Assembly: GCA_002869225.1 (NCBI GenBank)
Contig: PKTG01000097.1
Coordinates: 6,179-43,449, forward strand
Source: Candidatus Muiribacterium halophilum
GTDB taxonomy: Bacteria > Muiribacteriota > Muiribacteriia > Muiribacteriales > Muiribacteriaceae
Length of the DNA stretch: 37,271 nt
Reading direction: 5' to 3'
Below the pieces are notes generated by a model. It saw only the letters and a list, made by a program, of their open reading frames with translations, was not told the origin of the DNA and ran no database searches. Both the position numbers and the translations under genes were made by a program. Of the stretch, positions 4,854-33,221 are shown piece by piece. Within the stretch, counting starts at the first letter, position 1. Every line of letters begins with the position of its first letter.

Positions 4854-6194
4854 ATGGACTTCTTTTCCCATTCTGAAGATGATGTAAAGAAATTGATGGG
4901 GGAACTGGGAGTCGGACATATTGATGAACTTTTCAAAGATATTGATCCTGAAAAGTTAAATCCAACTCTGGACCTTCCTGTTCCTATGACAGAAAAGGAA
5001 GTAGCTGAGCTTTTAAAGGAAAAAGCTTCTAAAAACTGTGCTGGAGATTGTATATCTCTTGCCGGTGGTGGAGTGTATGATACATATATACCAGCGGTAG
5101 TCGATGAACTTGCAGCAAGAGGTGAGTTTTATACTGCTTATACTCCTTATCAGGCTGAGGTAAGTCAGGGAACGCTTCAGGTAATATTTGAATTTCAATC
5201 AATGATCTGTTCTCTTACTGGAATGGAAGCTGCTAATGCTTCTATGTATGATGGGGCATCCGCTTTGGCTGAAGCTGTACTTATGGCTTTTCGGCAGAAA
5301 AAGAAAGCGAATAACGTTTATATTGCAAAAAGCATAAATCCATTTTATAAAAAAGTTATAAAGACCTATCTTTCAGGATTTGATTATAGTATCAATGAGA
5401 TCCCTTTTAAAGAAAACGGCCTTTTAGATATCGATTTTTTGAAAAGTCAGGATCTAAATGAAACATGTGCTATCGTAGTATCAAATCCAAATTTCTTTGG
5501 ACTTTTTGAAAGTGGACTTGAAGAACTCAATGATATAAAAAAAGAAAACAAACTTCTTCTAATTGCACAGCAAAACCTTCTTTAACAGAGTCTTCTTAAA
5601 GGTGGAGATGAACTCGGCTTTGATATAGTAGCAGGTGAAGCTCAGAACATGGGAAATTATCCAGGTTTTGGTGGACCGCTTCTTGGTTTCTTAGCAACAA
5701 CTAAAAAACTTTTAAGAAAACTACCTGGAAGAATAGTTGGACTTTCTGAAGATGTTGATGGTAAAAAGGCTTATGTACTTACTCTTCAGGCACGTGAGCA
5801 GCATATAAGAAGACAGACTGCTACATCGAATATATGTTCCAATGAGGCATTATGTGCCACAAGATCTACTATTTATATGGCACTTCTTGGAAAGCAGGGA
5901 CTAAGTCAGTTAGCTCTTTATAACATGGAAAGAACGGAAAGACTTATAGAAATATTTAAAAGATTTGGTTTTAAAGAAAGATTCCAAACTCCTTATTTTA
6001 ACGAAAATGTACTTTATCATGAAAAGATAGATGAGACTTTTGAAAGACTTACTGAAAAAGGACTTGTTTGTGGAATACTTCTTAAGGATCATCTTGGAGA
6101 TGATTTCAAAAATTGTATCCTGATCTGTGGTACTGAAAAACTTACAGATAAAAAATTGGAAAAGGTTTCTAGTATTCTTAAGGAGGTACTCTAA
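4854..6194 (+). CDS. gcvPA: Glycine dehydrogenase (decarboxylating) subunit 1, with an in-frame TAA
   Basis: The N-terminal-half subunit of the split P-protein; with GcvPB it forms the PLP enzyme that decarboxylates glycine. The reading frame is interrupted once, by TAA at 5583-5585 (codon 244). Both sides are excellent GcvPA sequence in the same frame: before it, [14 protein letters not shown] and [10 protein letters not shown]; after it, [30 protein letters not shown] and [19 protein letters not shown]. The stop falls where homologues have roughly DPxSLxLLKPPGE; here the flanks read QNLL, stop, QSLLKGG. Ignoring the stop the length (446 codons) is normal for the family and there is no frameshift. 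The ATG at 5649 could not restart a working subunit. It overlaps gcvPB by one base (TAATG). Could be a readthrough gene, a fresh pseudogene or a base error. Confidence 0.85.
5583..5585 (+). other. In-frame TAA inside gcvPA
   Basis: TAA codon 244 of the gcvPA frame, followed by CAG. The upstream context is CTT CTT. Homologous protein continues in the same frame for 202 more codons with no second stop until the natural TAA at 6192-6194. Confidence 0.9.
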
Positions 6195-7660
6195 TGGATA
6201 AAGTTGAAAAGACTATTTTTGAGTTTTCCTCAAAAGGTGCTGGTACCTATAAGACTGTTGAAAGAGATCTTTCTGCTTTTGAAAAAAGAATACCTGCATC
6301 TTTGAGAAGAGCTGATCTTGATTTTCCTGAAGTATCAGAACCTGAGGTCTTAAGGCATTATTTCAGACTGTCCAGGAAAAACTTCTCAGTAGATGAAGGT
6401 TTTTATCCACTTGGTTCCTGTACTATGAAATATAATCCAAAGATAAACGAGAGACTTGCTTCCAATCCTGCTTTTACAGATGTGCATCCATTGATGCCGG
6501 TTGAAAAAGTTCAGGGATGTCTTGAGATAATGAACGAACTATCAGAGTATCTTTGTGAGATAGTCGGAATGGATTCATGTACTTTATCTCCAGTTGCAGG
6601 TTCACATGGAGAGTTCACAGGACTCAAGATAATCAAAGAATATCATAAAAAGATGGGAAACGATCACAAGGATGTTATCATTCTTCCTGACTCAGCTCAT
6701 GGAACAAATCCGGCTAGTGCTTCAATGTGTGGTTTTAAAGTTGTTGAAGTCCCATCTGATAAAGATGGTGGAATAGATCTTGAGAGACTTAAGGAACTGG
6801 TTGATGACAATGTTGCAGGTTTTATGGTGACTAATCCAAGTACTTTAGGTCTTTATGATAAAAACATACAGGAGATCGCAAAGGTATTTCATGAAAAAGA
6901 TGCACTTCTTTATTATGATGGAGCAAACCTTAATGCGATTATGGGAAAAGTCAAACCTGGAGATATGGGATTTGATATAGTTCATCTTAACCTTCATAAG
7001 ACTTTTTCTACACCTCATGGTGGAGGTGGACCAGGAGCTGGACCTGTTGGAGTAAAGAAAAGACTACATAGTTTCCTTCCTGGACCTTTAGTTGAAAAAA
7101 AAGGTGAAAAATATGTGTTTGCGGATGAACCGGTTCATACTATTGGAAGATTACATTCGTTTTACGGAAATTTTTTGATTCTTGTTAGAGCTTATATATA
7201 TATAAGGATGCTTGGTGAAAAAGGTCTTAGAAAGACCTCGGAAAGAGCTGTTCTTAATGCAAATTACATGATGAACAAACTAAAGAAAGTACTTAAACTC
7301 GACTATGACAGAACATGTATGCATGAGTTTGTCTTGTCAGCAAAAGCTTTAAAGAAAGAGACGGGTGTCTCAGCAATGGATATAGCAAAAAGACTTCTTG
7401 ATTTTGGATATCATGCACCTACAATGTATTTTCCTCTTATTGTTGAGGAAGCTCTTATGATAGAACCTACAGAGACAGAGACAAAAGAAAGTATTGATGA
7501 TTTTTGTAAAGCTATTGAAAAAATAGTTGAGGAAAGCAGAAAGGACCCTGAGATTCTTCATAATGCTCCAATAAACACTCCGGTTAGAAGAGTTGATGAT
7601 GTTCAGGCTGCAAGAAAACCAAGGACAAATCATTATTTAGACTGCAGGTCTGATGTTTAA
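6194..7660 (+). CDS. gcvPB: Glycine dehydrogenase (decarboxylating) subunit 2
   Basis: The catalytic C-terminal-half subunit of glycine decarboxylase. The PLP-binding lysine is K269 in [17 protein letters not shown] (266-280), preceded by the cofactor-binding [10 protein letters not shown] (167-176) and YDGANLNAI (241-249). Length of 488 is normal. It starts at the A shared with the gcvPA stop and its own TAA overlaps the start of the next gene (ATG at 7653), so the block is tightly coupled. Intact, unlike its partner gcvPA, which argues that the complex is or was recently in use. Confidence 0.95.
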
Positions 7661-8543
7661 AATAACTGTACCATGTTCGTTAAGGATCGGGCCGGGGATC
7701 GATACTTTTGCCCTGGCCGTCGATCGTTTCATAGAGATAATACTAATAGATGTTGATCGTGAAGAAAAAAATGGAAGCGTTACAATAGACCGCGATAGTA
7801 CACCTTTTGTTGATAGAGAGAATCTGAAACTTATAACAAATAAGATATTCCGACATATGAGTCGAGTGTTCTCATTTCCAAGATACGATATAAAGGTGAA
7901 ATTTCTTTCCGAAAAAGCATATCTTTCATGTCTTAATCAGAACGAGGCTATACTTATTGGTATTGTAAGTATATTAAATCTTGTCTATAACCTTAATCTT
8001 ACAGAGGAACGTATACTTTCTATCGCAAATGAGACGGGATTTAGATTAGAATGTGCGACGGCTTCGTTTATGGGAAATCTTGCTATTGTTGACAGGGAAA
8101 GAAATAATTTTCTTACAATCGACTGGCCATCTGAGTGGAAGATATCTCTCGTTAAACCATCAGAACCAAAATGGATCAAAAAGCTTCCAAAAATAAGTAG
8201 AGAGATAGCAGATGATATGGTCTCAAAAGCGTCATTTTTCACAATAGCTGTCTTGAATTCAAATTCAGAACTTCTAGCTGCTTCTCTTCAAGATCAGTTT
8301 CTTTATAATATTCATAGAGGAAGAATACCTTATCTTGATAAATTACTTCTGACAGGGAAAAACTGCAATGTTCACGGACTATCACTTTTAAGAAAAGAGG
8401 CTGGAATAATAATAATAGCTGATCAGATTCCAAGAAAAAGATGTTCATCGAGAATATATCAGCTTTTATCCACTGCCAATACAGAATATATTGAAGAGGA
8501 ATTTGGGGTAGAAGGCGCAGGTATTGCAATATGCAAAGATTGA
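7653..8543 (+). CDS. thrB: Homoserine-kinase-like GHMP protein with degenerate active-site motifs
   Basis: The first GHMP motif is clear ([23 protein letters not shown], compare VPATSANLGPGFD in ThrB), the 296-residue length fits, and the gene lies directly before lysC and asd, so homology to homoserine kinase is likely. However, the glycine-rich ATP loop expected as PxGxGLGSSAA is here [15 protein letters not shown] (about residues 90-104), the GHPDN segment is replaced by [10 protein letters not shown], and the C-terminal SGAGPT motif is replaced by SLLRKEAG. The protein is open over its full length and sits in frame in the operon, so it is not simple decay. It may be a pseudokinase, or have a changed role. 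It overlaps gcvPB by 8 bases and lysC by 13. Confidence 0.65.
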
Positions 8544-9754
8544 TACAGGTAAGAAAATTCGGTGGATCTTCACTTGCTAATCAGACTCTTGTCAAAAGAG
8601 CCTGTTTACTTATAAAGGAAGCTCTTGATGAGAATGATGGACTGTCGATAATAGTTGTTGTATCAGCTCAGGGGAACCAGACAGACGAACTTTTCTCAAA
8701 GACACGGATGTATTTCCCGGAAAAAGGATGTGAGACTCAGAAAGCTCTTTTTGTATCTACCGGAGAACTTCAGAGTGCATCTCTTTTTTCTATGATGATG
8801 GATAGTATTTGTGTAAGTTCTAAAGTTGCTCTTGTGAATAATATTCCAATAGAGACAAACGGAGAAAGTCTGGATTCTAGAATAGTCAGTATCGGAAAAG
8901 ATTATCTTAGCCAACTGATCGAAAAATATAGAGTAGTTATAGTCCCTGGTTATCAGGGTATAAATTCCTCTAATGAGATAACCGTTCTCGGTAGAGGTGG
9001 TTCGGATACTTCTGCAGTCGCCATTGCTGGTAGTCTTGAACTTGATGAATGTCTTATCTTTAGTGATGTAGATGGAATATATACTGCTGATCCTAGAATA
9101 ATATCAAATGCAAAGCATATAAGCTCAATATGTTATGATGAGATGAAAGAGATGGCTTTATCCGGTGCACAGGTAATTCATTATAGAGCCGTAGAGATTG
9201 CAAGAAGATACAATGTTAAGGTAAAATGTTTATCAGCTTTTAAAAAAGGAAAAGAGACTGTAGTCTGCAAAGAGACATCTATGGAAAAACATCATATAAC
9301 AGGAATCGTCCATAATCTTGATGAAGCAAGGGTCGATATAAAAGGAAAGAGTGCAAAGAATACGATAATATCAGATATATTCAAACTTCTTTCCAATATT
9401 AATATTCCTGTTGATATGCTTAGTCAGATATCATCAGGAGATGGTATAACCATCTCTTTTACTATCCCTCGTTCGAACATTGTACAGGCAAAAAACCTTC
9501 TTGAGCAGGAAAAGGATAGAATAGGTTTTGATGAGATGAATATCAATCTTGATGTCGCAAAGATATCTGTTATTGGGAACGGACTGAGGAACAATACTCA
9601 GGTGGCGACCAGGATACTTGATGTGATGAGAGATGAAGGTATGAAAATATATATGATGTCATATTCTGATCTTAGGATAAGTACTGTTATTCCTTCAGAT
9701 GAGTTTCGTAGAGTTCTCAGTAGGCTTCATGAGGTCTTTTTTGAGGAGAATTGA
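8531..9754 (+). CDS. lysC: Aspartate kinase
   Basis: Phosphorylates aspartate, the first step to lysine, threonine and methionine. The N-terminal VRKFGGSSLA is the kinase signature; FVSTGELQSASLFS, VPGYQGI and LGRGGSDTSAVAIA (about residues 155-168) complete the catalytic domain, and FSDVDGIYTADPRI follows. The C-terminal third carries two ACT-type regulatory segments (around ISSGDGITISF and MSYSDLRISTVI), implying feedback control. At 407 residues it is the monofunctional type. It overlaps the ThrB-like gene by 13 bases and asd by one base (TGATG). Confidence 0.93.
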   Translation: MQRLIQVRKFGGSSLANQTLVKRACLLIKEALDENDGLSIIVVVSAQGNQTDELFSKTRMYFPEKGCETQKALFVSTGELQSASLFSMMMDSICVSSKVALVNNIPIETNGESLDSRIVSIGKDYLSQLIEKYRVVIVPGYQGINSSNEITVLGRGGSDTSAVAIAGSLELDECLIFSDVDGIYTADPRIISNAKHISSICYDEMKEMALSGAQVIHYRAVEIARRYNVKVKCLSAFKKGKETVVCKETSMEKHHITGIVHNLDEARVDIKGKSAKNTIISDIFKLLSNINIPVDMLSQISSGDGITISFTIPRSNIVQAKNLLEQEKDRIGFDEMNINLDVAKISVIGNGLRNNTQVATRILDVMRDEGMKIYMMSYSDLRISTVIPSDEFRRVLSRLHEVFFEEN

Positions 9755-10707
9755 TGAATATCGCTGTTGTAGGCGCATCTGGCATTGTTGGAAGAGAATT
9801 TCTGAAGTTAATATGTCAGAGAGGTTTAGCTTATAATAAGATATATCTTTTTTCTAGTGATAGATCAGCAGGAAAAAAGATATTTATAAATGGAAAAGAC
9901 CATGAGTTTATAAGTCTTTCTAAAGCTAATATTCCGGATGATGTTGATATTGCTTTTTTTTCAGCTGGTTCTTCTGTTAGTCTTAAATATGTTCCTTTAT
10001 TTGCTGAAAAGGGGACGGTTGTAATCGATAATTCATCTGCTTTCAGAATGAAGGATAATATTCCGTTAGTAGTTCCTGAAATAAATTTCAATGCTATTAA
10101 AGAAGATGATAAAATAATAGCTAATCCTAATTGTTCTACCATACAATTTGTTCTTGTGCTCGATCTGCTTAAGATCCTGAGACCAAAGAGTATATATATA
10201 TCTACTTATCAGTCTGTATCAGGTGCTGGTCTTAAGGCTCTTGAGGATGTCCTTCTTGATAAAAGTGATTTTTTTGAACAAGGTATAAACAGGAATGTAA
10301 TACCTGAAATAGGTGAGTTTAATGATCTTGGAGAGACTACTGAAGAGGAAAAGATAAGAAAAGAGACTGTTAAGATACTCGAGATCCCCCTTAAGATAAA
10401 TTCATTTGCTGTTAGAGTTCCAACTTTGTTCTGTCATAGTGAATCTGTGATCATTGAATTTGAAAGTGAAGTGAATATAGATGATATCAAATCTTTACTG
10501 GAACAAAGTGAAGTTGTTGTGTATGATGAGAAGATGAACTTAAGTCTTGATATAGCTGGAAGTGATAAGACATTTGTCTCAAGATTACATCAGATAAAAG
10601 AATATAGAGATTCTATAAATATGTGGATAAGTGCAGATAATATTCGTACGGGTGCAGCTTTAAACGCTGTAAAGATAGCTGAGAGGATAATCAATGAGAA
10701 GTTTTGA
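9754..10707 (+). CDS. asd: Aspartate-semialdehyde dehydrogenase
   Basis: Reduces aspartyl phosphate made by LysC to aspartate semialdehyde with NADPH. MNIAVVGASGIVGREF is the nucleotide-binding start; the catalytic cysteine is C127 in NPNCST; SVSGAGLKAL and RVPTLFCHSE carry the substrate Arg and catalytic His regions (the usual Gly before His-Ser is Cys here). I place the start at the ATG at 9754, preceded by GAGGAG and overlapping the lysC stop, rather than the TTG three bases earlier. 317 residues, normal length. It overlaps lptD by 14 bases. Confidence 0.93.
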   Translation: MNIAVVGASGIVGREFLKLICQRGLAYNKIYLFSSDRSAGKKIFINGKDHEFISLSKANIPDDVDIAFFSAGSSVSLKYVPLFAEKGTVVIDNSSAFRMKDNIPLVVPEINFNAIKEDDKIIANPNCSTIQFVLVLDLLKILRPKSIYISTYQSVSGAGLKALEDVLLDKSDFFEQGINRNVIPEIGEFNDLGETTEEEKIRKETVKILEIPLKINSFAVRVPTLFCHSESVIIEFESEVNIDDIKSLLEQSEVVVYDEKMNLSLDIAGSDKTFVSRLHQIKEYRDSINMWISADNIRTGAALNAVKIAERIINEKF

Positions 10708-12709
10708 TAAAAAGCAACTTTTTTTAATGATGATATTATTTCTCTTTGTTATCTCTTATGCTGCAAAAGAAAATAAAGTAGTCGTTTACGGTGGAGTAAT
10801 TGAATATAAGACTGATGAAGAGATGATATATGTGAGAGATGGTGCTCATATTTTTTACTCTGATATAGAGATATTTGCTGATAATATTCAGGTAGATGTT
10901 GAAAATGATAAGGTGTTTGCTTTAGGAAACGTAATATTCTGGCAGGGTCAGGATAAGACTATGGGGGAATATCTTGAATATGATAATAAGACGGGAAAAG
11001 GTTATATAGAGAATGCAAAACTGGTAAGACAGCAGAGTATTATGTATGCTGATTCTATCGAACTCTCGGTAAGAAAAATATCTGGAAAGAATATAATCTG
11101 GACTACCTGTGAGCTCGATCATCCTCATTATTATCTAAAAGCAAAGAGTATTGATATCTTTCCTGATCAGGTCATGTATGCACACGATATGAAATATGTG
11201 ATACATGGAGATACCATAATAAAACAGAAAGTATATAAAATAGATATAAAACCTCTTCAGGAAGATTTTAAATATCGATATGGATATTCTGACTCAAAAG
11301 GTGTATGGGTTAACGCAAAGTATAACTATCTTCTCACCCCGATAGCTACAGGCTGGCTTACATGGGATTATACTCAAAGAATATCGGATACGATCTCGAC
11401 AACAAATACATGGAAGCTAAACAATAAGAGAGATTCTTTAGGAATAAATACTTCAAACTATTCTACAAAGGATGGTAAAAACTCGACAGCAAACTATAGG
11501 ATGAACTATAGAGGGAGAAGTGGTATAGCAAATTATACTTTCTCAGGCACTTTCTTTTCAAGAGATAATTCCCTGACAGCAAAGAACGATGAACTGAATT
11601 ACAACGTGACTTTAGGGCTTAGAATGCCAAGAAATAATTTGCTTGAACTAAGCAATATTAACATATACTGGAAAGAAAGAAGAGACCCTGATGGAAGTTC
11701 TTACCCTCAGGATGATAAGATCAGAGTACTTGATAAGATACCTGAGATAAATTTGACAACAAACAGGATAACCCTTCCAGGTAAAATTTTTAATGTAAAT
11801 ATGAACCTTTTGTGGGGAAAATATTTTGAAGGTGGACCAACTGAGGTCTATGCAAGAAAACAGGATGAGAAGATAAATATATCGTCAAACTCTTATGAGA
11901 TATGGAAACTTGGTAGACTTAATTTATCTGGAAACATAAATCATTCAAGAGATTCAAAAGGAAATGATCAAAAGACCTATTATACTGGTGTATCTTTAAA
12001 TAAGACTTTTTTTAAAGGTATGTCGTGGTCGAATAAATGGGATAGAAGAGATAATTTTGGTACAAGTGCTTTCTCATACTCCACAAGACCAGGCTCTCTG
12101 ACTTATCGAAGTACACTTGCATATAGAGGTAAGAAGATATCAAGTACACTTTTATCATTTAACTATGATCTTAAAGCTGATAAATTTCTCTCAGGAATAT
12201 ATTCGGACCTAAGATTGAATCTAAATAAATTTGAATATTATCTTAAACTAAATTATGCGCTTAATAATCAGACTTTAGGTGATCTCAAGAATCCTGATCC
12301 TACTTTTAGTGATAATTACAATAGGCTTTCTTATAATTTTGATAAGGATACCTATTTAAGATTTACAGTGCCATATAATAGGACAACAGGAAAATATACA
12401 AGTCATTACATTGAAGGAAAATTCAAGCTTCCTAATTTTTATATAGGACATAACTTTATTGAAGGCAAAAGGATAACTGCTAATCTTACATGGAGAAGAG
12501 ATCTTATAACTAAGTCTACAAAAGCTCTTTCAATGGATTTTACGATTGATTTACATTGCTGGGAGGGCGTGATAAAATGGGACAGAAATCGTAAGGAAGG
12601 TTGGCTTGAATTTTATGTTAAGACCGATCCTGGAAACAAACATCGAATATTTTATGATGCTGAAGAAGGAAAGGTGAAACCAATACTAAAAAGAATCGAT
12701 ACTGATTGA
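10694..12709 (+). CDS. lptD: LPS-assembly protein LptD/OstA-like outer-membrane protein
   Basis: LptD is the outer-membrane barrel that inserts lipopolysaccharide. The 671-residue product has a signal peptide (to about residue 23), an LptA/OstA-like N-terminal domain (about 27-165, with ADNIQVDVENDKVFALGNV) and the typical junction TTCELDHPHYYLKAK at 137-151. The remainder is a long series of alternating aromatic beta strands ending in a strand-rich C-terminus. It is shorter than proteobacterial LptD. Its presence is the best evidence that the host is diderm. It overlaps asd and is followed by a lipoprotein gene; no LptE is recognised, though that lipoprotein occupies the spot where one might be. 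Confidence 0.88.
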   Translation: MRSFDKKQLFLMMILFLFVISYAAKENKVVVYGGVIEYKTDEEMIYVRDGAHIFYSDIEIFADNIQVDVENDKVFALGNVIFWQGQDKTMGEYLEYDNKTGKGYIENAKLVRQQSIMYADSIELSVRKISGKNIIWTTCELDHPHYYLKAKSIDIFPDQVMYAHDMKYVIHGDTIIKQKVYKIDIKPLQEDFKYRYGYSDSKGVWVNAKYNYLLTPIATGWLTWDYTQRISDTISTTNTWKLNNKRDSLGINTSNYSTKDGKNSTANYRMNYRGRSGIANYTFSGTFFSRDNSLTAKNDELNYNVTLGLRMPRNNLLELSNINIYWKERRDPDGSSYPQDDKIRVLDKIPEINLTTNRITLPGKIFNVNMNLLWGKYFEGGPTEVYARKQDEKINISSNSYEIWKLGRLNLSGNINHSRDSKGNDQKTYYTGVSLNKTFFKGMSWSNKWDRRDNFGTSAFSYSTRPGSLTYRSTLAYRGKKISSTLLSFNYDLKADKFLSGIYSDLRLNLNKFEYYLKLNYALNNQTLGDLKNPDPTFSDNYNRLSYNFDKDTYLRFTVPYNRTTGKYTSHYIEGKFKLPNFYIGHNFIEGKRITANLTWRRDLITKSTKALSMDFTIDLHCWEGVIKWDRNRKEGWLEFYVKTDPGNKHRIFYDAEEGKVKPILKRIDTD

Positions 12710-12720
12710 TGAGGGGAATT

Positions 12721-13824: not shown

Positions 13825-14245
13825 TGACCACGCAGCGGTAGAGTTAAAAAAGTGGATTATGGAAGAATTTTTAGATGTTGATTTTATCAATGTTGGAACT
13901 GATAAAGACGAAAGTGTTGATTATACAGATTATTCTTATGAGGTGTGTAAAAAGGTCAATGCAGGCGAAGCTGAGCTTGGAATACTAATTTGTGGAACCG
14001 GAACAGGAATGGCAATTTCTGCAAATAAAGTAAAAGGTATCCGTGCAGCGATGTGTTATAACGAGATGATGGCAGAGTATGCAAAAAGACATAACAATGC
14101 AAATGTACTCGCTATTGGTGCAAGAGTCATGGGAGATGAACTTGCTAAAAGAGTTGTAAGAATATTCTTAAATACTCCTTTTGATGGTGGAAGACATGAA
14201 AGACGTGTAAATAAAATAACAAAGATAGAGGAGGAAAATTTATGA
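13805..14245 (+). CDS. rpiB: Ribose-5-phosphate isomerase B
   Basis: Interconverts ribose 5-phosphate and ribulose 5-phosphate (pentose phosphate pathway). MKIAIGNDHAAVELK carries the family D8-H9 pair, and C63 in LICGTGTGMAISANK is the RpiB active-site cysteine with the phosphate-binding GTGTGM loop; RAAMCYNEMMAEYAKRHNNANVLAIGAR follows. 146 residues is normal. An AGGAGG ribosome site sits 7 bases upstream, inside the lipoprotein gene. Overlaps upp by 4 bases (ATGA). Supplying ribose phosphate next to a PRPP-using enzyme (upp) makes functional sense. Confidence 0.95.
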   Translation: MKIAIGNDHAAVELKKWIMEEFLDVDFINVGTDKDESVDYTDYSYEVCKKVNAGEAELGILICGTGTGMAISANKVKGIRAAMCYNEMMAEYAKRHNNANVLAIGARVMGDELAKRVVRIFLNTPFDGGRHERRVNKITKIEEENL

Positions 14246-14865: not shown

Positions 14866-14877
14866 CGGGAGATTTTT

Positions 14878-20016: not shown

Positions 20017-20838
20017 ATGAAAAAAATTCTCATCCTATTAATCATAATTTTTGTAATTAGTTTTATTCAATATCAATATGTAAATTCCGAAGATGATGAA
20101 TATTACAAAAATAGAATAAAAGACTTGTTAATTGAAATGGAATTAGTTGAAAATACAGAAAATATACTAAAAATAGATAAAAAAATTTTATTATAAAAAA
20201 GCATTAAGTTTGTATCTAACTTCATAAATAAGAATCAATCTTATTCGGCAGAGTTTGGTTTTAATAAAAAAGATAAAACAATAGTCTCGTTTTCTTCAGA
20301 TTATGAATTTTTAAAAGAAAAAACTAAAGTAAAAGACTCATTAGTATCGTTAAGTAAATATATATTAAGCACCTTAAGAAATGATTTTAAACTGTTTTTA
20401 GATCAAATCGAGTTTATAGAAGAAAATAATTATTTTTCAATTGTATTAATGAAAAATATTAATGGATTCCAGGTTTTATATGGCAAAAGAGTAGAGATCA
20501 CACTTGTTGATAAAGGAAGAATAGTTAGTTTAAATATTTTTGACGATGAAATGAAAATAAATAAACCAACGATGATAAAAAGAGAATTAGCGTTTGAAAA
20601 AATCAAGAGAAATCTTTTAGAAAAAAATGATATCGATGACTTTCAATTTGAAGATAAATACAAAGAATATACAGAATTTTTTTACATGGATATTTCCAGA
20701 CCTATATTTTTAAAAGTTAATGATATTATCAATGAATATAGATTATACTGGGTGTTTCCCGCTTTTTTTAAAGATAATAAAAAGGAAATAAAGATTTTTT
20801 TATATGATATAGAAAAAGGAATTATTTTAGAATATTAA
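20017..20838 (+). CDS. Exported protein of unknown function with an in-frame TAA
   Basis: The frame starts MKKILILLIIIFVISFIQYQ, a signal peptide or membrane anchor, and continues as a charged, Lys/Asn/Ile-rich protein of 273 codons to the TAA at 20836-20838. It is interrupted by one TAA at 20194-20196 (codon 60, between ATTTTATTA and AAAAGC), with no frameshift. The part after the stop (GFQVLYGKRVEITLVDKGRI, EYRLYWVFPAFF) looks like the YcdB/PepSY-type beta-alpha pattern of secreted proteins, but I would not assign a family. Codon use differs from neighbours: TTA and CAA dominate over the local CTT and CAG, suggesting acquisition from elsewhere. An internal ATG at 20449 would give only the last 129 residues. 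Confidence 0.6.
20194..20196 (+). other. In-frame TAA inside the 20017 gene
   Basis: TAA codon 60 of a 273-codon frame that otherwise runs from a signal peptide to a natural stop. Upstream codons are TTA TTA, downstream AAA AGC. Confidence 0.8.
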
Positions 20839-21942: not shown

Positions 21943-21956
21943 TCAATAATCATGTA

Positions 21957-22150: not shown

Positions 22151-22206
22151 TGAGCCTTGAAAAATCGCTTAAAAATCAACAATAGAAACAAAAACACTTA
22201 AAAAAC

Positions 22207-22234: not shown

Positions 22235-22238
22235 GGTA

Positions 22239-22265: not shown

Positions 22266-22310
22266 TAAATGAAATCAAAAAACAAAGAATAAAAAACAGG
22301 AGGAACAAAA

Positions 22311-22604: not shown

Positions 22605-22640
22605 TTAAAGGGATAAACAATACAAGGAGGAAATACTTAA

Positions 22641-24284
<1,644 letters not shown>

Positions 24285-24295
24285 GACAAATTATC

Positions 24296-24327
24296 AAAGG
24301 CGACAGCTACATGCTGTCGCCTTTTTT
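24296..24327 (+). terminator. Rho-independent terminator after groEL
   Basis: AAAGGCGACAGC and GCTGTCGCCTTT pair around a TACAT loop and run into a T6 tract. This is the strongest terminator in the window. hrcA begins ten bases later, so hrcA is transcribed either by readthrough or from a promoter within this short gap, keeping repressor levels below chaperonin levels. Confidence 0.92.
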
Positions 24328-24336
24328 GTATAAGGT

Positions 24337-25413
24337 ATGAAAATGAAAAAGCTTACAGATAGAAAAAAAATAATATTATCCAGTCTTATTCAGGAGTACA
24401 TAAAAACAGGTGATCCTGTATCTTCAAGGTCAGTTACAAAGAACGATAATGTCAGCTGTTCTTCCGCTACGGTAAGAAACGAACTTTCTGAACTTGAGGA
24501 TATGGGTTTACTTGAAAAGTCCCATTCATTTTCAGGTAGACTTCCTTCAGATGTTGGTTATAGATTTTTTGTTGATAATCTAATGGATAGTGTGGTTGAC
24601 CTATCCTTAAATGAAAAGGAGAGAATATCTTCTATTTACTCTTTAAGGAATTTAAACTCATCCAGATCTACTATGCTTAAGGATATATTTCTTTATGGTG
24701 TAAATGTACTAAATAATCTATGTGATCAGGCGGCTTTTATTTGTGAAGCAAGAAGCATTGAAAAGTCTGTTAAAGCTATTAAGATAATAAAGGTGTCTTC
24801 TCTTGTTTATACAGTTATCTTTCATCATGATAATAACGTAATCGAAAACAAATTATGGTTTCCTACAAATTTGATCACAGATGAAGGTCTGGAAACAATG
24901 AACAACGTGCTTCAGGATATAACATCAAAAGGATTTAAAGACCTTTCAAATGATGTAAAGAATTATTTTCAAAAGAATAAAGGTCTAAACCATCTTAGAG
25001 AAGGTATTATAGAGATAGTCGAACTCGTTCTTGATGGAGGTCGTGAATCGAATATTGATGATACTCTTTATATAGAAGGTATATCAAAACTTATTCAAAA
25101 GCCTGAGTTTGCATCTATGGAAAAAATCAGGTCGATAATACAGCTTTTTGAAAGTAAAGAACTTTTGAATCGTGAGATAAAAAAACTTCTTATTTTGAAA
25201 AAGATGAATATAAAGATAGGTTCAGAACTTGGAGTTGATGATCTTAATGACTTCTCGCTTATTAGTATACCTTATAGTGCTGGAGAAGATAAAAAAGGTG
25301 TCATAGGTATAATTGGTACAAAAAGGATGCAGTATGAGAGAATCGTTAAAATAGTTCGTGAGACTGCTGAAAAATTATCTAGTTTGCTAGTTGGGATCGA
25401 TCTTGATCTATGA
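24337..25413 (+). CDS. hrcA: Heat-inducible transcription repressor HrcA
   Basis: HrcA binds CIRCE and needs GroEL to fold into its active form, which makes it a heat sensor. The N-terminal winged helix is clear (LTDRKKIILSSLIQEYIKTGDPVSSRSV then CSSATVRNELSELEDMGLLEKSHSFSGRLPSDVGYRFFVD, about residues 5-77). The remainder is the GAF-like regulatory domain; ISIPYSAGEDKKGVIGIIGTKRMQYERIV near the end is typical. 358 residues, normal. Two in-frame ATGs (24337 and 24343) are possible starts; AAGG precedes the first. It overlaps the DnaJ-like gene by 4 bases (ATGA). Confidence 0.94.
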   Translation: MKMKKLTDRKKIILSSLIQEYIKTGDPVSSRSVTKNDNVSCSSATVRNELSELEDMGLLEKSHSFSGRLPSDVGYRFFVDNLMDSVVDLSLNEKERISSIYSLRNLNSSRSTMLKDIFLYGVNVLNNLCDQAAFICEARSIEKSVKAIKIIKVSSLVYTVIFHHDNNVIENKLWFPTNLITDEGLETMNNVLQDITSKGFKDLSNDVKNYFQKNKGLNHLREGIIEIVELVLDGGRESNIDDTLYIEGISKLIQKPEFASMEKIRSIIQLFESKELLNREIKKLLILKKMNIKIGSELGVDDLNDFSLISIPYSAGEDKKGVIGIIGTKRMQYERIVKIVRETAEKLSSLLVGIDLDL

Positions 25414-26012
25414 TAAAAAAAGCTTTTAAAGATCTCGGACTTGATCCATCAGCAAGTCTGGATGAAATAAAAAAGAAATATAGAAAACTTATGTTTAGAT
25501 TCCATCCGGATATCAATCCGAATGCAAATATAGAGACTTTTCATAAGATAACAGAATCCTATAATACATTAAGAGATTTTAAGGAAGGAAAACTTAGTCC
25601 CCTTTCGGATCTGAGACGTTCCTATGTGCATCTTATTAGAAAACTTGTTCCAGATGTATATGTGAGGATGTCTAAAGAGAATTTTAATAATGCAGATATA
25701 TTAAAATTTGATATTAACATCTATTGTGATAATTGTATTAGAGATTCGAAGATCCCATGCTTTAAATGTATGAAGAAAGGGTATTTGGATTTTAAAGTTG
25801 GAAAAGTAGTAAGAAAAAGAGAGTGTTCTAATTGTGCTGGACGAGGATTTTTATGGGAATGTGATAGATGTGGAGGTAAGGGGTTTTATAAAAAAAGTAT
25901 CGAGCTATCAAAAAATAAAGCTTTTAAAATAAAAGATGATCTTTATTTGTTAAAGGAAACTGGTAATGAATATAAAGGACATCGTTCTGATGTTTATATA
26001 ATTTTGTTATGA
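25410..26012 (+). CDS. Short DnaJ-like protein: J domain plus zinc-finger remnant
   Basis: J domain at residues 1-58 with the HPD motif at 32-34 (FRFHPDINPN), which stimulates DnaK ATPase. It lacks the Gly/Phe linker. Eight cysteines follow in four CxxC pairs (106-109, 117-120, 139-142, 151-154), the second two with the CxxCxGxG shape of the DnaJ zinc finger, the first two degenerate. The protein then ends at residue 200, so the two C-terminal substrate-binding domains and dimerisation helix of standard DnaJ (about 370 residues) are reduced to about 40 residues ending in HRSDVYIILL, which resembles the last strand of C-terminal domain 1. It is coupled to hrcA. Neither grpE nor dnaK is in the window. 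Confidence 0.85.
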   Translation: MIKKAFKDLGLDPSASLDEIKKKYRKLMFRFHPDINPNANIETFHKITESYNTLRDFKEGKLSPLSDLRRSYVHLIRKLVPDVYVRMSKENFNNADILKFDINIYCDNCIRDSKIPCFKCMKKGYLDFKVGKVVRKRECSNCAGRGFLWECDRCGGKGFYKKSIELSKNKAFKIKDDLYLLKETGNEYKGHRSDVYIILL

Positions 26013-26034
26013 CGTTAAGACGTTAGTGCGTTAA
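26011..26034 (+). repeat. 8-bp repeat array after the DnaJ-like gene
   Basis: GACGTTAA, GACGTTAG, TGCGTTAA in tandem, beginning within the stop codon of the DnaJ-like gene. It resembles in style the heptamer arrays that follow gcvT and the WecG fusion gene. Confidence 0.55.
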
Positions 26035-26046
26035 TCTAATAATGAT

Positions 26047-26172
26047 TCAATCTTTGTTTATTACTCTTTTTTCAATAATTCCATCAATTATAAAAAAAAT
26101 AGTATTTACAGCTGAGACCGCTGCAAACAACAGTAAAAATAATGATAATACAATTGTCATAAAAATATTCAT
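26047..26172 (-). CDS. Small single-span membrane protein (41 aa)
   Basis: A short frame on the minus strand reads MNIFMTIVLSLFLLFAAVSA and on through VNTIFFIIDGIIEKRVINKD to TGA. It has one strongly hydrophobic helix (residues 3-28) and a charged C-terminal tail. A ribosome site (TGAGGTAG) lies just before the ATG and TATAGT/TATAAA about 20 bases upstream. It fills the otherwise empty 270-bp gap before the cyclase gene. No family recognised. Confidence 0.5.
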   Translation of the reverse strand: MNIFMTIVLSLFLLLFAAVSAVNTIFFIIDGIIEKRVINKD

Positions 26173-26248
26173 CTATCTACCTCATTGTTTTTATACTATA
26201 TTTTTCGAAAAAAAACACTTTTTACATTAAAAAAATTTTGTACCGGTT

Positions 26249-26276
26249 TTGAGTTTTGAGTTTTTTTTGATAAAAT
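26249..26276 (+). promoter_or_regulatory. Promoter of the CHASE2 cyclase gene, leaderless spacing
   Basis: TTGAGT (26249-26254), 16-base spacer, TAAAAT (26271-26276), then exactly six bases to the ATG at 26283. No ribosome site is present. The gene begins ATGATG. Confidence 0.5.
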
Positions 26277-26282
26277 ATCTCG

Positions 26283-28415
26283 ATGATGAAAAAATTTTTA
26301 TATATATTACCAATAATAATTGTAATTTTAACTCTTGGTTTTAATGCCAAATTTGATAAGATGTTTGAGTCATTCGATGAATTTCTCGCAGACTATCCTA
26401 TGTATTTAGATGTTACAAAAAGAGATAAAGTTGAAAACTTCAAATCAGATTTTCAGTTAGTTCTTCTTGAACTTGATGAAAAATCCTATGATACTATCTC
26501 TGAGCAATATAGCAAATACGATAGTCTTTCTGCTCAAAAAAGAAGTGCTTTTGCAAAAGTAGTTAAATACATTTCTGAACAAGGTGTTAAGGCTATTGCT
26601 TTTGACTTTACATATGAGACTTTATCAGATCCTGAAGCGGATAAAGAGTTTATTGGTTCATTAAAAGCAGCACAGGAAAAAGGTGTTAAGATAATACTTG
26701 GTTCCAAGATGATGTTTGATGAGATCTCAAGTAAACCTGAGTTTGATACTCCTGCGATTAAAGGATTTGAATATGGTCTTATAAACAATGCACCTAATAA
26801 GAACAATATTATTAGAAAACCATTTCTATTTGTTAAATATAAAGATGAGATGCGCTATACGTTAGCTCTTAAGTTATACATGGAAATCAATAATATAAAA
26901 GAAGTCAAGTATGATGAACGTTATCTTTATCTTAATGATGATAAGAAGCTTCCTATTCAATATGCAAAAGGACAGGGGCTTGAGCTTGCTTATTATAATA
27001 TCTATTACACGATGAGATTTGGAGATTCTCATATATTTCCAATCAGTGCGATAATAGATGATAAACAAAGAAAAGAATACACAGAGGATAATTACTTTAT
27101 CTCTTATGATCTAAACAACAATGAAAGATCAGTATTTAAGGATGCGGTTGTATTTATAGGTACTTCAAGTCCGGATGATCAGGACTTTGTAACCTATTCA
27201 CTTTCGCAGTTTGAACAGGGAACAGCAATAGTACCTGGAGTTCATATTCATATGTCTTCTTTCTTCTCTATGTTATTTGGTCTTGACTATGATCAGATGA
27301 GAGAAAACACATTGTTCTATCTTACTGTTATTATTACTTTAATATTTTCGATATTATTTATTTTTATTGGTCCTTTAAAAGGGCTTTTGGCAATGATGTT
27401 TGGTGTATTTTTTACTAATGCGATATCCTGGCTTCTTTTTGTTGAAAAAGGATATCTTTTCTTACCTAGAAAACCAATCGTTGGTATAATAATAGGTTTT
27501 CTTATAATCGAATCATATAAGTTCTTCTTTGAATCCAGAGAGAAAAAGAAAATAAAGGGTGCTTTCTCTATGTATATCTCGCCAGCTCTTGTGCAGAACA
27601 TAGTTAAAAACCCAGATCAATTAAAACTTGGTGGAGAAGAAAAAGAACTTACGATACTTTTCTCAGACATAGCTAATTTTACTACCTTATCAGAAGCAAT
27701 TGGGGCGGTAAAACTAGTTTCTTTGCTTAATGAATATCTGACAGCTATGACTGACATAATAATGGAAGAAAGCGGAACGCTTGACAAATATATCGGTGAT
27801 GCTGTAATGGCATTCTGGGGTGCTCCAGTTGATGATGAAAAACACAGTGAGAAAGCATGTAGAGCAGCTATCAGAATGATTGAGACCCTTGAAAAACTGA
27901 AACAGGATTGGAAAGAGAGAGATTATCCTGAATTTGGTATAAGAATCGGTCTTAATACCGGAAATGCTATTGTCGGTAATATGGGTGCTAAAAAGCGTTT
28001 CAACTATACTGTTATGGGTGATACAGTGAATCTTGCTTCAAGACTTGAAGGTCTTAATAAAGCATATGGTTCAACTATAATGGTTAGTGAATCAACCTAC
28101 CTACAAAACAAGGATAAGTTTAAATTCAGAGAACTTGATCTTGTTAAGGTTAAAGGTAAGACCCAAGGTGTTAGAGTCTTCCAACTTCTTCATTTTGAGC
28201 CTGATGAAAACTATGAGAAGGGTGTTGCTATCTTTACAGAAGCTCTTGAGATATATAGAGCTGGTAATTTTGCAGCTGCACTTTCAAAGTTTAAGGCTGT
28301 TTATGAGTTCATCCCAGGGGATACTGTGACTGATACGTTTGTTAAGAGATGCGAACTTCTTTCACAGGAACCACCAGAAGAATGGGATGGAATCTGGACT
28401 ATGAAAACAAAATAA
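26283..28415 (+). CDS. CHASE2-domain adenylate/guanylate cyclase
   Basis: A 710-residue membrane sensor cyclase. After an N-terminal helix comes an extracytoplasmic CHASE2 sensor (about 35-335; FQLVLLELDEKSYDTIS, GVKAIAFDFTYE, VFIGTSSPDDQD), three membrane helices (about 343-413), then a class III cyclase domain (455-640). Metal-binding Asp residues are D462 (FSDIANFT) and D506, the substrate Lys is K502 (GTLDKYIGDAVMAFWGAP), and MGDTVNLASRLE (578-589) carries the transition-state region. The C-terminal 60 residues hold one TPR-like unit (FTEALEIYRAGNFAAALSKF). It probably makes cAMP in response to an unknown external signal; the purine specificity is not certain from sequence. Same strand as recJ, 18 bases away. 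Confidence 0.92.
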   Translation: MMKKFLYILPIIIVILTLGFNAKFDKMFESFDEFLADYPMYLDVTKRDKVENFKSDFQLVLLELDEKSYDTISEQYSKYDSLSAQKRSAFAKVVKYISEQGVKAIAFDFTYETLSDPEADKEFIGSLKAAQEKGVKIILGSKMMFDEISSKPEFDTPAIKGFEYGLINNAPNKNNIIRKPFLFVKYKDEMRYTLALKLYMEINNIKEVKYDERYLYLNDDKKLPIQYAKGQGLELAYYNIYYTMRFGDSHIFPISAIIDDKQRKEYTEDNYFISYDLNNNERSVFKDAVVFIGTSSPDDQDFVTYSLSQFEQGTAIVPGVHIHMSSFFSMLFGLDYDQMRENTLFYLTVIITLIFSILFIFIGPLKGLLAMMFGVFFTNAISWLLFVEKGYLFLPRKPIVGIIIGFLIIESYKFFFESREKKKIKGAFSMYISPALVQNIVKNPDQLKLGGEEKELTILFSDIANFTTLSEAIGAVKLVSLLNEYLTAMTDIIMEESGTLDKYIGDAVMAFWGAPVDDEKHSEKACRAAIRMIETLEKLKQDWKERDYPEFGIRIGLNTGNAIVGNMGAKKRFNYTVMGDTVNLASRLEGLNKAYGSTIMVSESTYLQNKDKFKFRELDLVKVKGKTQGVRVFQLLHFEPDENYEKGVAIFTEALEIYRAGNFAAALSKFKAVYEFIPGDTVTDTFVKRCELLSQEPPEEWDGIWTMKTK

Positions 28416-28433
28416 AAATAGACTGGAAGAAGT

Positions 28434-30434
28434 ATGAAGAAAATATGGAAGATAAAAGAGTATGATAATTCTATTATTGAAAAAATAACCTCTCATTTTA
28501 AAATATCTCCGATTATTGCAATAGTCCTTTATAATAGAGGTCTCAGAGATATTGATCAGATACAGAATTTTCTTTCCTACAATGAACACGAGTTTTATTC
28601 TCCATTTCTTTTTAAGGATGCTGAAATAGCTGTTGACCTTATAAAAGAGATTGTGGATAAAGGTGAAAAGATAGCTGTCTTTGGTGATTATGATGTTGAT
28701 GGAATAACAAGTGTTGCTATTTTTCATGAGTTTTTTACTGATCAGCTTAAATACGACAATGTAGAGTATATACTTCCTGAAAGGGAGATCGGATACGGCC
28801 TTAACTCAGCCTTTATAGACCGAATAGTAGATAAAGGTGTATCTTTGCTTATAACTGTTGATTGTGGTATTTGTAATGTGGACGAGATAAGAAGAGCAAG
28901 AGAAAAAGGTATAAAAGTCATAATAACTGATCATCATGAGATACCTGATGATATCCCTGAAGCAGAAGCTGTAATAAATCCTAAACTTCCAGATCAATAT
29001 CCCATTAGTTATCTTGCAGGTGTAGGTGTTGCTTTTAAAGTAATACAGGCATGTCTTGAGAGACTTGAACTTGATAAGGATTTTGTTGATAAGATAATCG
29101 ATCTTGTCGCACTTGGTACTATAGCTGATATTGTACCGGTACTGGATGAGAATAGACTCATAACAAAACTCGGTCTTGATAAGATGAAAAAACATAAAAG
29201 ACCTGGTATTGAAGCTATAATGAAATATGTATATGGAAATGATATAAACTCAAGGACAATAAGTTTTGGAATAGCACCTAGAATAAATGCAAGTGGTAGG
29301 ATAGGTAATCCCAAGGTCGCTCTTGATCTTCTGATCACAAAAGATAAACATGAAGCTCAGACACTTGCTAAAGAACTCAACGATCAGAATCGCAAGCGAC
29401 AGACTATTGAAATGGGTATAATGAAAAAAGCGGATCAACTTGTTAAAGAAGATCCACTTAATGAAAAAGTCATCATTCTCTCTTCGTATGATTGGAATAT
29501 AGGAGTGATTGGAGTTGTATCTTCAAAACTTAAAGATAATTATTTTCGACCAGCATTTCTTATAAGTATTGATAAGGAGTCAGGTATAGGAAAAGGTTCA
29601 GCAAGAAGTGTACAAGGATTTCATCTTGTAGAATCCCTTAATATGTGTTCGGATCTACTTATTGAATATGGTGGACATGAGTTTGCTGCAGGTTTTACGA
29701 TAAAAGAAGAGAATATACCGGCCTTTCATAAAAGACTTGTAGATATATTTGAGAATGAACAAGCGAAAGGAGATTCAGAGGGACCAACGATTGAAGTTGA
29801 TATGGAGGTAGAACCTCAGGATGTTAATATGCATCTATATGATGAACTTCGTCAGAAGTTATATCCATATGGAGAAAAGAATCCTTTCCCGCGTTTTGCA
29901 ATGAGAAATGTAAGTATCAAAAACCTTAATGTATTTTCAGGAAGACATCTTTCATTATGGCTTACAGATGGTTTTCATAATATAAAAGCAGTATGTTATA
30001 ATTTTTTAAAGGAATAACAGAAGAATCCGTTTGATAGAGGCGATAATATTGATGTTGTATTTACTTTAAAACTAACACATCTTAGAAATGAGAGTTTTAT
30101 TGAACTGCAACTAGCGGATATCTATGTTCCGGAAAAAGAGAAAAAAGAAAAAAAGAAAAAGAGCTTTAATACAAACAGACTTAGAGAAAGAGGAAACGAG
30201 TTTTTGTTTACAGGCTCATATGATAGAGCGATATCTTTTTACAGAAAGGCTTTAAAGGAAAACGATAGGGACTACAAACTTTTATTTAATATTGGTCTTG
30301 CTTATAGAAAAAAAGGTGATAAAGGAAAAGCTTTGTCTTATTTTAATAAAGCAAAAAAATATGTTGAAAGAAGTGATGAAGAGGTGTTTAATAAAATAAA
30401 TGCAAATCTGCAAAAATTAAGATCAGGAGAATAA
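28434..30434 (+). CDS. recJ: Single-strand-specific exonuclease RecJ fused to a TPR tail, with an in-frame TAA
   Basis: RecJ degrades single-stranded DNA 5' to 3' in recombination and repair. DHH domain: FGDYDVDGITS (DYDVDG at 85-90) and TDHHEIP (DHH at 166-168), both with full metal ligands; DHHA1: EYGGHEFAAGFTI; OB fold from about residue 500. The frame has one TAA at 30015-30017 (codon 528) in the middle of the OB fold, after NFLKE. The same frame continues with the rest of the fold (RGDNIDVVFTLKLTHLRN, IELQLADIYVP), a Lys/Glu linker, and about two TPR units (ERGNEFLFTGSYDRAISFYR, YKLLFNIGLAYRKKGDKGKA) to TAA at 30432-30434, 666 codons in all. Stopping at 527 would cut the OB fold in half. 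apt follows after three bases, as in other recJ-apt clusters. Confidence 0.85.
30015..30017 (+). other. In-frame TAA inside recJ
   Basis: TAA codon 528, preceded by AAG GAA and followed by CAG AAG. The OB-fold homology continues across it in the same frame. Confidence 0.9.
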
Positions 30435-30437
30435 AAA

Positions 30438-30950
30438 ATGAACTATGAAAAATTAATCAGAGATATACCGGATTTTCCAAAGAAAGGTATTGTATTTAAG
30501 GATATCACACCGGTATTAAAAGATCACAGTGCTTTTAAAAAGGTTGTTGAAGAGATGGCTGAGCCTTTCAAAGATTCAGGTATAGATTATGTAGTTGGTA
30601 TGGAATCAAGAGGATTTATTTTTGGTGTACCAGTGTCCCAGATACTTGGCGCGGGGTTTGTTCCTGTTAGAAAACCGGGTAAACTTCCAGCAAAGACAGC
30701 TTCGGAATCCTACGAACTTGAATATGGTAGTGACACTCTTGAGATTCATGAGGATGCTATTGAGGAAGGTAAAAAAGTGCTTATAGTTGATGACCTTCTT
30801 GCAACTGGTGGTACATGTGAAGCTACAATAAGATTGGTTGAAAAGATAGGTGGAAAAGTAGAAGGAACTTCTTTCTTTATTGAACTAGGTTTTATAAACG
30901 GAAGAGAAAAATTAAAAGGATACAAAGTAAACTCACTTATAAATTATTAA
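30438..30950 (+). CDS. apt: Adenine phosphoribosyltransferase
   Basis: Converts adenine and PRPP to [25 protein letters not shown] at the N-terminus is diagnostic; the PRPP loop is [17 protein letters not shown] (about 113-129), and [10 protein letters not shown] (about 55-64) is the family motif. 170 residues, normal length. AGGAG lies 8 bases upstream of the ATG. Only one base separates its stop from the amidase ATG. Confidence 0.97.
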
Positions 30951-30951
30951 T

Positions 30952-32211
30952 ATGAAAAAGTACTTTTTGTTTTCTTTTTTGATTATTGGACTTATTATTT
31001 GCCAGGCTTCCGTTTCTGTGTTTAAAGCATGGGATTATTGGGATGGTCCTGGATTTTTAAGGTTCACACTTATGTTCTCTGATGAGACTAATTATGAGAT
31101 AATCAGGATGGAGGATAAAAGACTTTTTGTTGTTGATATTCATGGTGATTTCAAAAGAGAGACTGATGTAGTCAGTATAGATAAGGGAAATGTCGAATCA
31201 GTAAGGATCGGTTCATATAAACCCGGTATAACCAGATTAGTCATAAAGCTTAAATATATCAATGAAGTCAAGGTATATCAGGCAAATAAGAAAAAAAACG
31301 ATCAGGCTTTAATTTTTGTTGATGTAGATGATTACTATGTGGCCAAGATTGATAAGAATAAGCAAAAGAAACAAAAACCATTTACCGTAGTATTAGATCC
31401 AGGCCACGGTGGAATGGACCCGGGAGCGATTAACACGGAATTTGGATTCAATGAGAAGGATATAGCCCTTGATGTATCAAAAAAGGTGAAGTGGATCTTT
31501 GATAATATGAAACAGAACAATATAAAATTGATTCTGACTAGAGATACCGATGTATTTCTACCGCTAAGAAGTAGAGCGAAAATAGCACAGAATCTCGAAG
31601 CTGATATCTTTATGAGTGTACATGCTGATTCTTCTTATAGAGAATCAGCAGTAGGAGCTAGTTTTTACTATCATTCAGAGACTTCTTCTTCTGTTGAGGC
31701 AAACTGGGTCGCTTATAAGGAAAATAAGGATTATTTTATTGAAGAATCATCAGAAGTATCCGATGTATCGGTCATACTGAAAGACTTGAAAGGAGCAAGT
31801 AGTCAGAAGAATTCGTCTATCCTTGCAGGTATTGTAAAGGATGGATTTGTTGAAAATGAGATTGATATTCATGGTCGTGGAGTCTTCTGTGCTTCATTTA
31901 CAGTTCTTGAATCTTCCTATTGTCCTTCAGCTCTAATTGAGATCGGATTTGTCTCAAATCCAGAAGAGAGTAAAAGACTTACTGGAAATATTTACAGGTA
32001 TGACTTGGCAAAGTCTATTGCTTCTGCTATAATTAAGTACTATGAATTCTCTAAAGAAAAGACTTTTGAGAATAAGAATTTTCCGAGTGTTGAAGTGGAT
32101 GAGAAGCTCGTGAATAGTTGTGATGCTAAATTAAATTTTTATTGTGTCAATAAAGATTATCTAAAACCGGTACATAAACAAGGAGGAAACAAAAGTGAAA
32201 ATAATAATTAG
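30952..32211 (+). CDS. AMIN-domain N-acetylmuramoyl-L-alanine amidase
   Basis: Periplasmic cell-wall amidase of the AmiA/B/C (Amidase_3) family, which cuts the peptide from muramic acid and helps daughter cells separate. Signal peptide 1-19; AMIN-type beta domain about 22-130 (targeting to septal peptidoglycan); catalytic domain from 145. Zinc ligands H152 (LDPGHGGMDPGA), E168 (NEKDIALD), H224 (SVHADSS) and the catalytic glutamate E330 (ALIEIGFVSNPEE) are all present. 419 residues. The last 40 residues include CxxN/Cys-rich segments of unclear role. No ribosome site; probably coupled to apt. Its 3' end contains the AGGAGG ribosome site and GTG start of hpf. Confidence 0.93.
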   Translation: MKKYFLFSFLIIGLIICQASVSVFKAWDYWDGPGFLRFTLMFSDETNYEIIRMEDKRLFVVDIHGDFKRETDVVSIDKGNVESVRIGSYKPGITRLVIKLKYINEVKVYQANKKKNDQALIFVDVDDYYVAKIDKNKQKKQKPFTVVLDPGHGGMDPGAINTEFGFNEKDIALDVSKKVKWIFDNMKQNNIKLILTRDTDVFLPLRSRAKIAQNLEADIFMSVHADSSYRESAVGASFYYHSETSSSVEANWVAYKENKDYFIEESSEVSDVSVILKDLKGASSQKNSSILAGIVKDGFVENEIDIHGRGVFCASFTVLESSYCPSALIEIGFVSNPEESKRLTGNIYRYDLAKSIASAIIKYYEFSKEKTFENKNFPSVEVDEKLVNSCDAKLNFYCVNKDYLKPVHKQGGNKSENNN

Positions 32212-32761
32212 TGGACAGAATTTTCATCTTTCAGAAGATCTAAAAGCACATACCGAGAAGAAGCTTTCAAATCTGAAAAAATATTTCGAACAGATCATTG
32301 AGACTGATGTAGTATTCCATGTTTCAGACGCTAAAGAAAAAGATAAAAAACATTCTGTAGAAGTTACTATCTGGGCAAATGGAACTACTATTCATGCCGA
32401 AGATCATGCACAGGATCTTAAATCATCTGTTGATATGGTTGTTGATAAACTCGAAAGACAGGTGAAAAAATATAAAGAAAAACTTAAAAAGAAATCAAGA
32501 AAGAAAATGTCAGTAGCAAAAGAAAAAGCTATAATGCATTCAATAGTAGGACTTGAAGAAGAAGAAGAAGAAAATGATACAACCAAGATCGTTAGAGCAA
32601 GAAAATATGCTCTTAAACCTTTATTTGTAGAAGAAGCTGCATTGCAGTTACAGGAATTTGGAAGAGAATTTCTTGTATTCACAAATGCTGAGACTGAACA
32701 GGTTAATGTTGTATACAAAAGAAAAGATGGAACTTTCGGACTTATTGAACCGGAATTTTAA
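32195..32761 (+). CDS. hpf: Ribosome hibernation promoting factor, long form
   Basis: Binds the small subunit and, in its long form, joins two ribosomes into inactive 100S dimers. N-terminal domain (1-100): IIISGQNFHLSEDLKAHTEKKLSNLKKYF then AEDHAQDLKSSVDMVVDKLERQVKKYKEKLKKK. C-terminal dimerisation domain (about 130-188): IVRARKYALKPLFVEEAALQLQEFGREFLVFTNAET and VVYKRKDGTFGLIEPEF. The start is GTG at 32195 with AGGAGG eight bases upstream, inside the amidase gene. The hpf-ptsN order is the same as in many bacteria. Confidence 0.95.
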   Translation: MKIIISGQNFHLSEDLKAHTEKKLSNLKKYFEQIIETDVVFHVSDAKEKDKKHSVEVTIWANGTTIHAEDHAQDLKSSVDMVVDKLERQVKKYKEKLKKKSRKKMSVAKEKAIMHSIVGLEEEEEENDTTKIVRARKYALKPLFVEEAALQLQEFGREFLVFTNAETEQVNVVYKRKDGTFGLIEPEF

Positions 32762-32774
32762 AAAATAGAAAATT

Positions 32775-33221
32775 ATGGATATTGAAAATTTATTAAAAGT
32801 AGAAAACGTACTACTGGAACCTAAAAGCAATAACAAAGATGATATTATTAAAGAACTTTGTAATTTCGCATATACTCATGGTATTGTCGGAAATGAAGAA
32901 GAGTTCTTTACAGTAATTGACAACAGGGAAAAGCTTGGAAGTACAGGTATTGGAAAAAACATAGCGATACCTCATGGTCGGTGTGACTGTGTAAAAAATC
33001 TTGCACTAGTCTTTGCCAGACATAAAGAGGGAATTTAATTTGAATCTCTTGATGGAACACCGGCCAAGATCTTTTTCCTTCTAGCTGCACCACTTGATGT
33101 AGAATCAAAATATCTTCAGGTACTTGCGCATCTTTCAAGACTTTTAAGAGAGAAGGATTTTAGAGAAAGACTTTTAGATGCAAAAGACCCCCAAGAGATA
33201 TTGGATATATTAAATACATAA
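32775..33221 (+). CDS. PTS fructose/nitrogen-type IIA (PtsN-like) protein with an in-frame TAA
   Basis: A mannitol/fructose-type EIIA phosphocarrier domain. The phospho-accepting histidine is H67 in IAIPHGRCD. One TAA interrupts the frame at 33036-33038 (codon 88), exactly where homologues read G(I/V)(D/E/other)F(D/E)SLDG: here HKEGI, stop, FESLDGTPAKIFFLLAAP. The frame then continues cleanly (LDVESKYLQVLAHLSRLLRE, FRERLLDAKDPQEILDIL) to TAA at 33219-33221, total 148 codons, a normal EIIA length. No frameshift. The final A of that stop is the A of the secA ATG. Next to hpf, so PtsN-type regulation is the likeliest role if the protein is made in full. Confidence 0.85.
33036..33038 (+). other. 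In-frame TAA inside the PTS IIA gene
   Basis: TAA codon 88, between GGA ATT and TTT GAA. It replaces a single variable residue within the conserved GI-x-FESLDG segment, so the alignment on both sides is tight and a frameshift can be excluded. Confidence 0.92.

Follow-up and report, generated by a model that had tools for sequence, protein, structure and literature searches.

The window, the whole 37,271-nucleotide stretch that was analysed, is part of contig 119 of the draft genome of Candidatus Muiribacterium halophilum (2.93 Mb in 148 contigs, G+C 33%, completeness estimated at ~89%). Four genes of the window are each interrupted by one in-frame TAA codon, at positions 5583, 20194, 30015 and 33036, as the original prediction described. 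Each codon lies within one continuous gene whose frame is open on both sides of the TAA and runs to one natural stop, with no frameshift in any of the four. The interrupted genes and their internal stops are the following.

4854..6194, + strand: gcvPA (glycine cleavage P-protein, N-terminal half), one interruption; Pfam GDC-P; relatives uninterrupted
5583..5585, + strand: in-frame TAA of gcvPA; homologs carry Ser in 54/167 (the commonest residue) and Ala in 43/167
20017..20838, + strand: exported-protein gene, one interruption; open frame on either side
20194..20196, + strand: in-frame TAA of the exported-protein gene; homologs searched, none found; replaced residue not inferable
28434..30434, + strand: recJ with a C-terminal TPR region, one interruption; Pfam DHH, DHHA1, RecJ_OB and TPR
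30015..30017, + strand: in-frame TAA of recJ, within the RecJ OB domain; aligned with Phe/Tyr beside a gap, uncertain
32775..33221, + strand: PTS EIIA type 2 gene, one interruption; Pfam PTS_EIIA_2
33036..33038, + strand: in-frame TAA of the PTS IIA gene; homologs carry Asp (13), Glu (4) and Asn (3)

Three of the four proteins remain typical of their families beyond the TAA, and in each of them a Pfam domain crosses the stop. The GDC-P domain comprises residues 3-441 of the read-through gcvPA product and spans the stop at residue 244, RecJ_OB comprises residues 455-562 of read-through RecJ (stop at residue 528), and PTS_EIIA_2 comprises residues 6-147 of the read-through PTS IIA protein (stop at residue 88). 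The Pfam search matched no family to the product of the exported-protein gene (20017-20838). TAA is also the normal terminator of most genes of the window. The genomes available for comparison belong to the same phylum only and are distant (~45% identity). In these relatives gcvPA is uninterrupted, and recJ is uninterrupted at the position of the stop (~45% identity or less); thus, neither gene shows the conservation of the interruption expected of programmed readthrough. An Rfam search of the window gave no match, nor did a scan of viral contigs with a window protein.

The spacer between gcvT and gcvH (4046-4460) harbors two interspersed repeats. One, at ~4086-4163, is 94% identical to positions 215-292 of stretch L175 of the genome; the other, a G-rich/C-rich element at ~4280-4375, has ~30 relatives in 0.95 Mb. 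Families of such short, dispersed repeats are frequent in the genome.

Genome-wide distribution of internal stops

Stretches of the same draft genome totalling 946 kb, including the window (about a third of the genome), were scanned with a trained phase-specific Markov coding model, and stops were listed when both flanks carried a same-frame coding signal. A strict filter, which excludes stops with an ATG or RBS-motif start just downstream, retained 38 candidates (28 TAA, 7 TAG and 3 TGA) spread over many contigs; two relatives, filtered identically over 340 kb, gave 2. The filter misses true cases (LeuRS, one sigma-54 activator, FlgJ and V-ATPase A) and retains a few doubtful candidates close to gene ends; about 40 single stops within otherwise intact genes is a fair estimate for ~0.95 Mb. 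Against ~40 in 945 kb, the four stops in the 37 kb of the window are only mildly in excess (Poisson P = 0.08). The phenomenon proposed for four genes is therefore present in the window and is not specific to it, being genome-wide. The companion statement, that only TAA interrupts genes, describes the window (4/4) and fails elsewhere, as TAG or TGA interrupts the genes of UvrA, PheS, V-ATPase A and V-ATPase B. As a rule, one lesion is found per gene. A very long prepilin-like gene on contig 14, with an open frame of >3,000 codons in total, carries both a TAG (15243) and a TAA (9180).

Frameshift candidates, defined as a frame switch without a normal stop and start, occur at the control rate (19 in 946 kb, compared with 7 in 340 kb of the controls). 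The lesions thus consist entirely of substitutions, which sets them apart from gene decay and from uncorrected long-read errors, and the mixture of nonsense and frameshift changes that marks decaying pseudogenes was not observed. For leuS, pheS, dnaN, murG, infC, uvrA and mutL the interrupted copy is the only one found. Essential genes (leuS, pheS, dnaN, murG and infC) were thus found only in interrupted form, which indicates that the changes were not filtered by selection. With regard to gene copies, three intact endonuclease-I-type genes cluster on contig 17 (77800-81000), an interrupted copy lies on contig 54 and another copy on contig 116.

Residues replaced at the internal stops

Read-through segments were aligned with relatives and with solved structures. 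The internal stop of LeuRS takes the place of the Ser of the KMSKS motif in 10/10 homologs, and that of FlgH also replaces a Ser (10/10 homologs); in MutL, Ser is found in 4/7. The TGA of PheS corresponds to Gly in 7/8 homologs, the TGA of V-ATPase B to Gly among the alignments listed, and the TGA of V-ATPase A is likewise aligned with Gly. Glu is found at the stop of one sigma-54 activator, in three of four relatives and in solved structures among the matches listed, and at the stop of a cyclase family protein, in a homolog of 82% identity (Asp or Glu in others). The TAG of UvrA corresponds to Glu where the alignment to solved UvrA is best, and to Lys, Asp or Glu in relatives. Either Glu or Ser would fit the stops of IF-3, FlgJ and a HEAT protein, and alignment gave no clear replaced residue at the sites in recJ, NrdG, MurG, EndoI and RecG or at 20194. 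Every clear site is a single G:C to T:A step away from a sense codon (TCA or GAA to TAA, GAG to TAG, GGA to TGA). The stop of DnaN, which aligns with Lys or Arg and would need a change of another class, is a possible exception.

No one amino acid is consistently replaced, as would be expected of a reassigned or dual-use codon; rather, Ser, Glu and Gly occur at different sites. With such a mixture, a code change or a single suppressor tRNA fails to explain the set. Programmed bypassing and the insertion of a stop codon were also considered and were rejected, as the best-aligned sites show replacement of a residue.

Mutation class

From the codon usage of the genome, G:C to T:A changes are expected to yield stops in the proportions 59% TAA, 21% TAG and 20% TGA. 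The dominance of TAA follows from this mutation class together with the abundance of GAA and TCA codons in a genome of 33% G+C; at a TAA share of 59%, four TAA out of four in the window has a probability of ~12%. Somewhat fewer TGA stops occur than expected of the plain G:C to T:A class (3/38, P = 0.035), a deficit that a preference for G in GA dinucleotides would produce.

Substitutions of this class should also alter sense codons. Radical one-step differences were counted at alignment columns that do not vary among five or more other genomes from three families. Five of the seven such differences in this genome are G:C to T:A (two Asp to Tyr, three Arg to Leu). In the relatives, the corresponding count is four of 26 independent radical changes, where independence was judged by eye (Fisher P = 0.009). 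Three of the missense codons lie in the window.

3497..3499, + strand: gcvT codon TAT (Tyr); Asp in 63/63 compared genomes; G:C to T:A missense
28638..28640, + strand: recJ codon CTT (Leu); Arg in 9/9 compared genomes; G:C to T:A missense
34301..34303, + strand: secA codon CTT (Leu) in NFF-L-MY; Arg in 9/9 compared genomes; G:C to T:A missense

The recJ change lies in an interrupted gene, and those of GcvT and SecA lie in window proteins other than the four interrupted ones. Missense changes of the G:C to T:A class at invariant residues are therefore beyond what readthrough explains. Taken together, the lesions at the clear sites fall into the single class that a GC>TA mutator would leave. Stem mismatches of the G:C to T:A kind were seen in two of the 39 tRNAs, a U.C in tRNA-Ala(GGC) and a G.A in tRNA-Arg(TCT), and three A.C mismatches are of another kind, numbers too small to weigh. 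Near-identical repeats within the genome are too few and too diverged to provide an error spectrum. From the ~40 stops and the share of susceptible codons, the rate is estimated at ~1 change per 1,000 G:C pairs, which corresponds to about a thousand scattered G:C to T:A changes in the draft genome.

Decoding machinery

None of the 39 tRNAs found in the 89% complete assembly has a UUA or CUA anticodon. RF1 and RF2 are both present and uninterrupted, with the GGQ motif in each and SPF in RF2. Neither the UUA-anticodon tRNA nor the unusual release factor that the original prediction had proposed to look for was thus found in this assembly. Four tRNA-Ser genes (TGA, GCT, GGA and CGA) are clustered with a tRNA-Arg gene at positions 4774-5303 of stretch L165.

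Origin of the internal stops

The internal stops are best explained as scattered G:C to T:A transversions, and very probably these are damage or amplification errors in the consensus rather than mutations of the living lineage. 8-Oxoguanine-type damage (G>T / C>A) or amplification errors would have entered the draft consensus, for instance where the template had low coverage or had been amplified, and would have converted GAA and TCA to TAA, GAG to TAG and GGA to TGA, along with missense changes. Fixed mutations in a living lineage could not break essential genes, which places the origin most likely in the template or consensus. C>A/G>T changes without indels and without the imprint of selection are what oxidative or consensus artefacts would produce, and this is the pattern observed. 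Both the chemistry and an origin outside the cells, in the sample or during assembly, are inferred from this pattern. Oxidised guanine is a recognised cause of artefactual C>A/G>T mutations when DNA is prepared, and stochastically scattered changes of this kind are described as a mark of such oxidative damage (PMC6337315, citing Costello et al. 2013). The present changes resemble such 8-oxoG sequencing artefacts in class and in their stochastic scatter. In contrast to them, artefacts usually being rare in reads and voted out, the present changes sit in the consensus. It also speaks against an artefact that, for an assembly with contigs of 150 kb, a consensus error of 0.1% is unusual if the template was neither single-cell nor amplified.

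The same spectrum could arise in a living lineage in which oxidised guanine goes unrepaired for want of MutY/Fpg, so that true G:C to T:A changes, nonsense mutations among them, have built up. No change other than GC>TA was detected in mutY strains of P. aeruginosa, with 80% at GA dinucleotides (PMC3676378). The GC>TA spectrum and GA context of such GO-deficient (mutY/mutM) mutators are shared here, as the GA preference fits GAA, GAG and TCA as targets and the scarcity of TGA. In this genome Fpg was unmatched, the search for MutY gave only an Nth-like match that itself contains one TGA, and mutL, uvrA and recJ are among the interrupted genes. However, these absences weigh little in an assembly that is only 89% complete; about half of the relatives also lack Fpg, the MutY cut-off was passed by only 5 of 33, and the two scanned relatives are almost free of such lesions. 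Living mutators should carry no nonsense codons in leuS, pheS or dnaN. Here leuS, pheS, dnaN, murG and infC are interrupted with no intact copy found, changes that could not be fixed in a living lineage, and these interruptions favour an artefact over a mutator. A living mutator is accordingly unlikely, although it is the leading alternative to an artefact. Far less probable still is a deep-branching lineage that hypermutates GC>TA to an extreme degree and tolerates nonsense codons in essential genes by broad, low-level readthrough of all three stops.

Context-dependent readthrough, or a low-level suppressor tRNA decoding TAA inside genes, would account for single TAA codons in genes that are otherwise intact and for the dominance of TAA. 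Such decoding is very improbable given the mixed replaced residues, the TAG and TGA codons that also occur inside genes, the missense changes of the same class, the tRNA and release factor complement, and the loss of an active-site Ser from LeuRS. Dual-meaning codes, in which UAA is both stop and sense, exist in Blastocrithidia and some ciliates. TAA here likewise both terminates genes and occurs within them, but there is no consistent amino acid and no cognate tRNA, and TAG, TGA and missense positions are affected as well. Ordinary gene decay would be consistent with single nonsense changes in individual genes, but it hardly fits frameshifts that are not in excess, lesions that number one per gene as a rule, and essential genes among those affected; we regard it as scarcely credible. 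Among the explanations listed by the original prediction, consensus base errors or nonsense mutations of one class thus remain, and readthrough and a suppressor tRNA do not. Its expectation for ordinary decay or assembly error, namely intact relatives with equal numbers of TAG/TGA and frameshift lesions, was borne out in part: relatives are intact and TAG and TGA do occur, whereas frameshifts show no excess and TAA dominates.

Implications

The four interrupted genes were observed correctly, but the evidence does not support reading them as recoding; their stops belong to a genome-wide G:C to T:A substitution noise in this draft sequence. Stop-codon recoding can thus be mimicked by substitutions of the damage type in a draft genome: low-GC genomes are rich in GAA, TCA and GAG codons, so that G>T / C>A errors appear in them chiefly as TAA codons within genes. 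Before recoding is claimed, surveys of alternative codes or pseudogenes should ask which residues were replaced, whether other stop codons are affected, whether missense changes of that class occur and whether essential genes are hit. Protein predictions from this assembly should be read with about one damaged site per few kilobases in mind.
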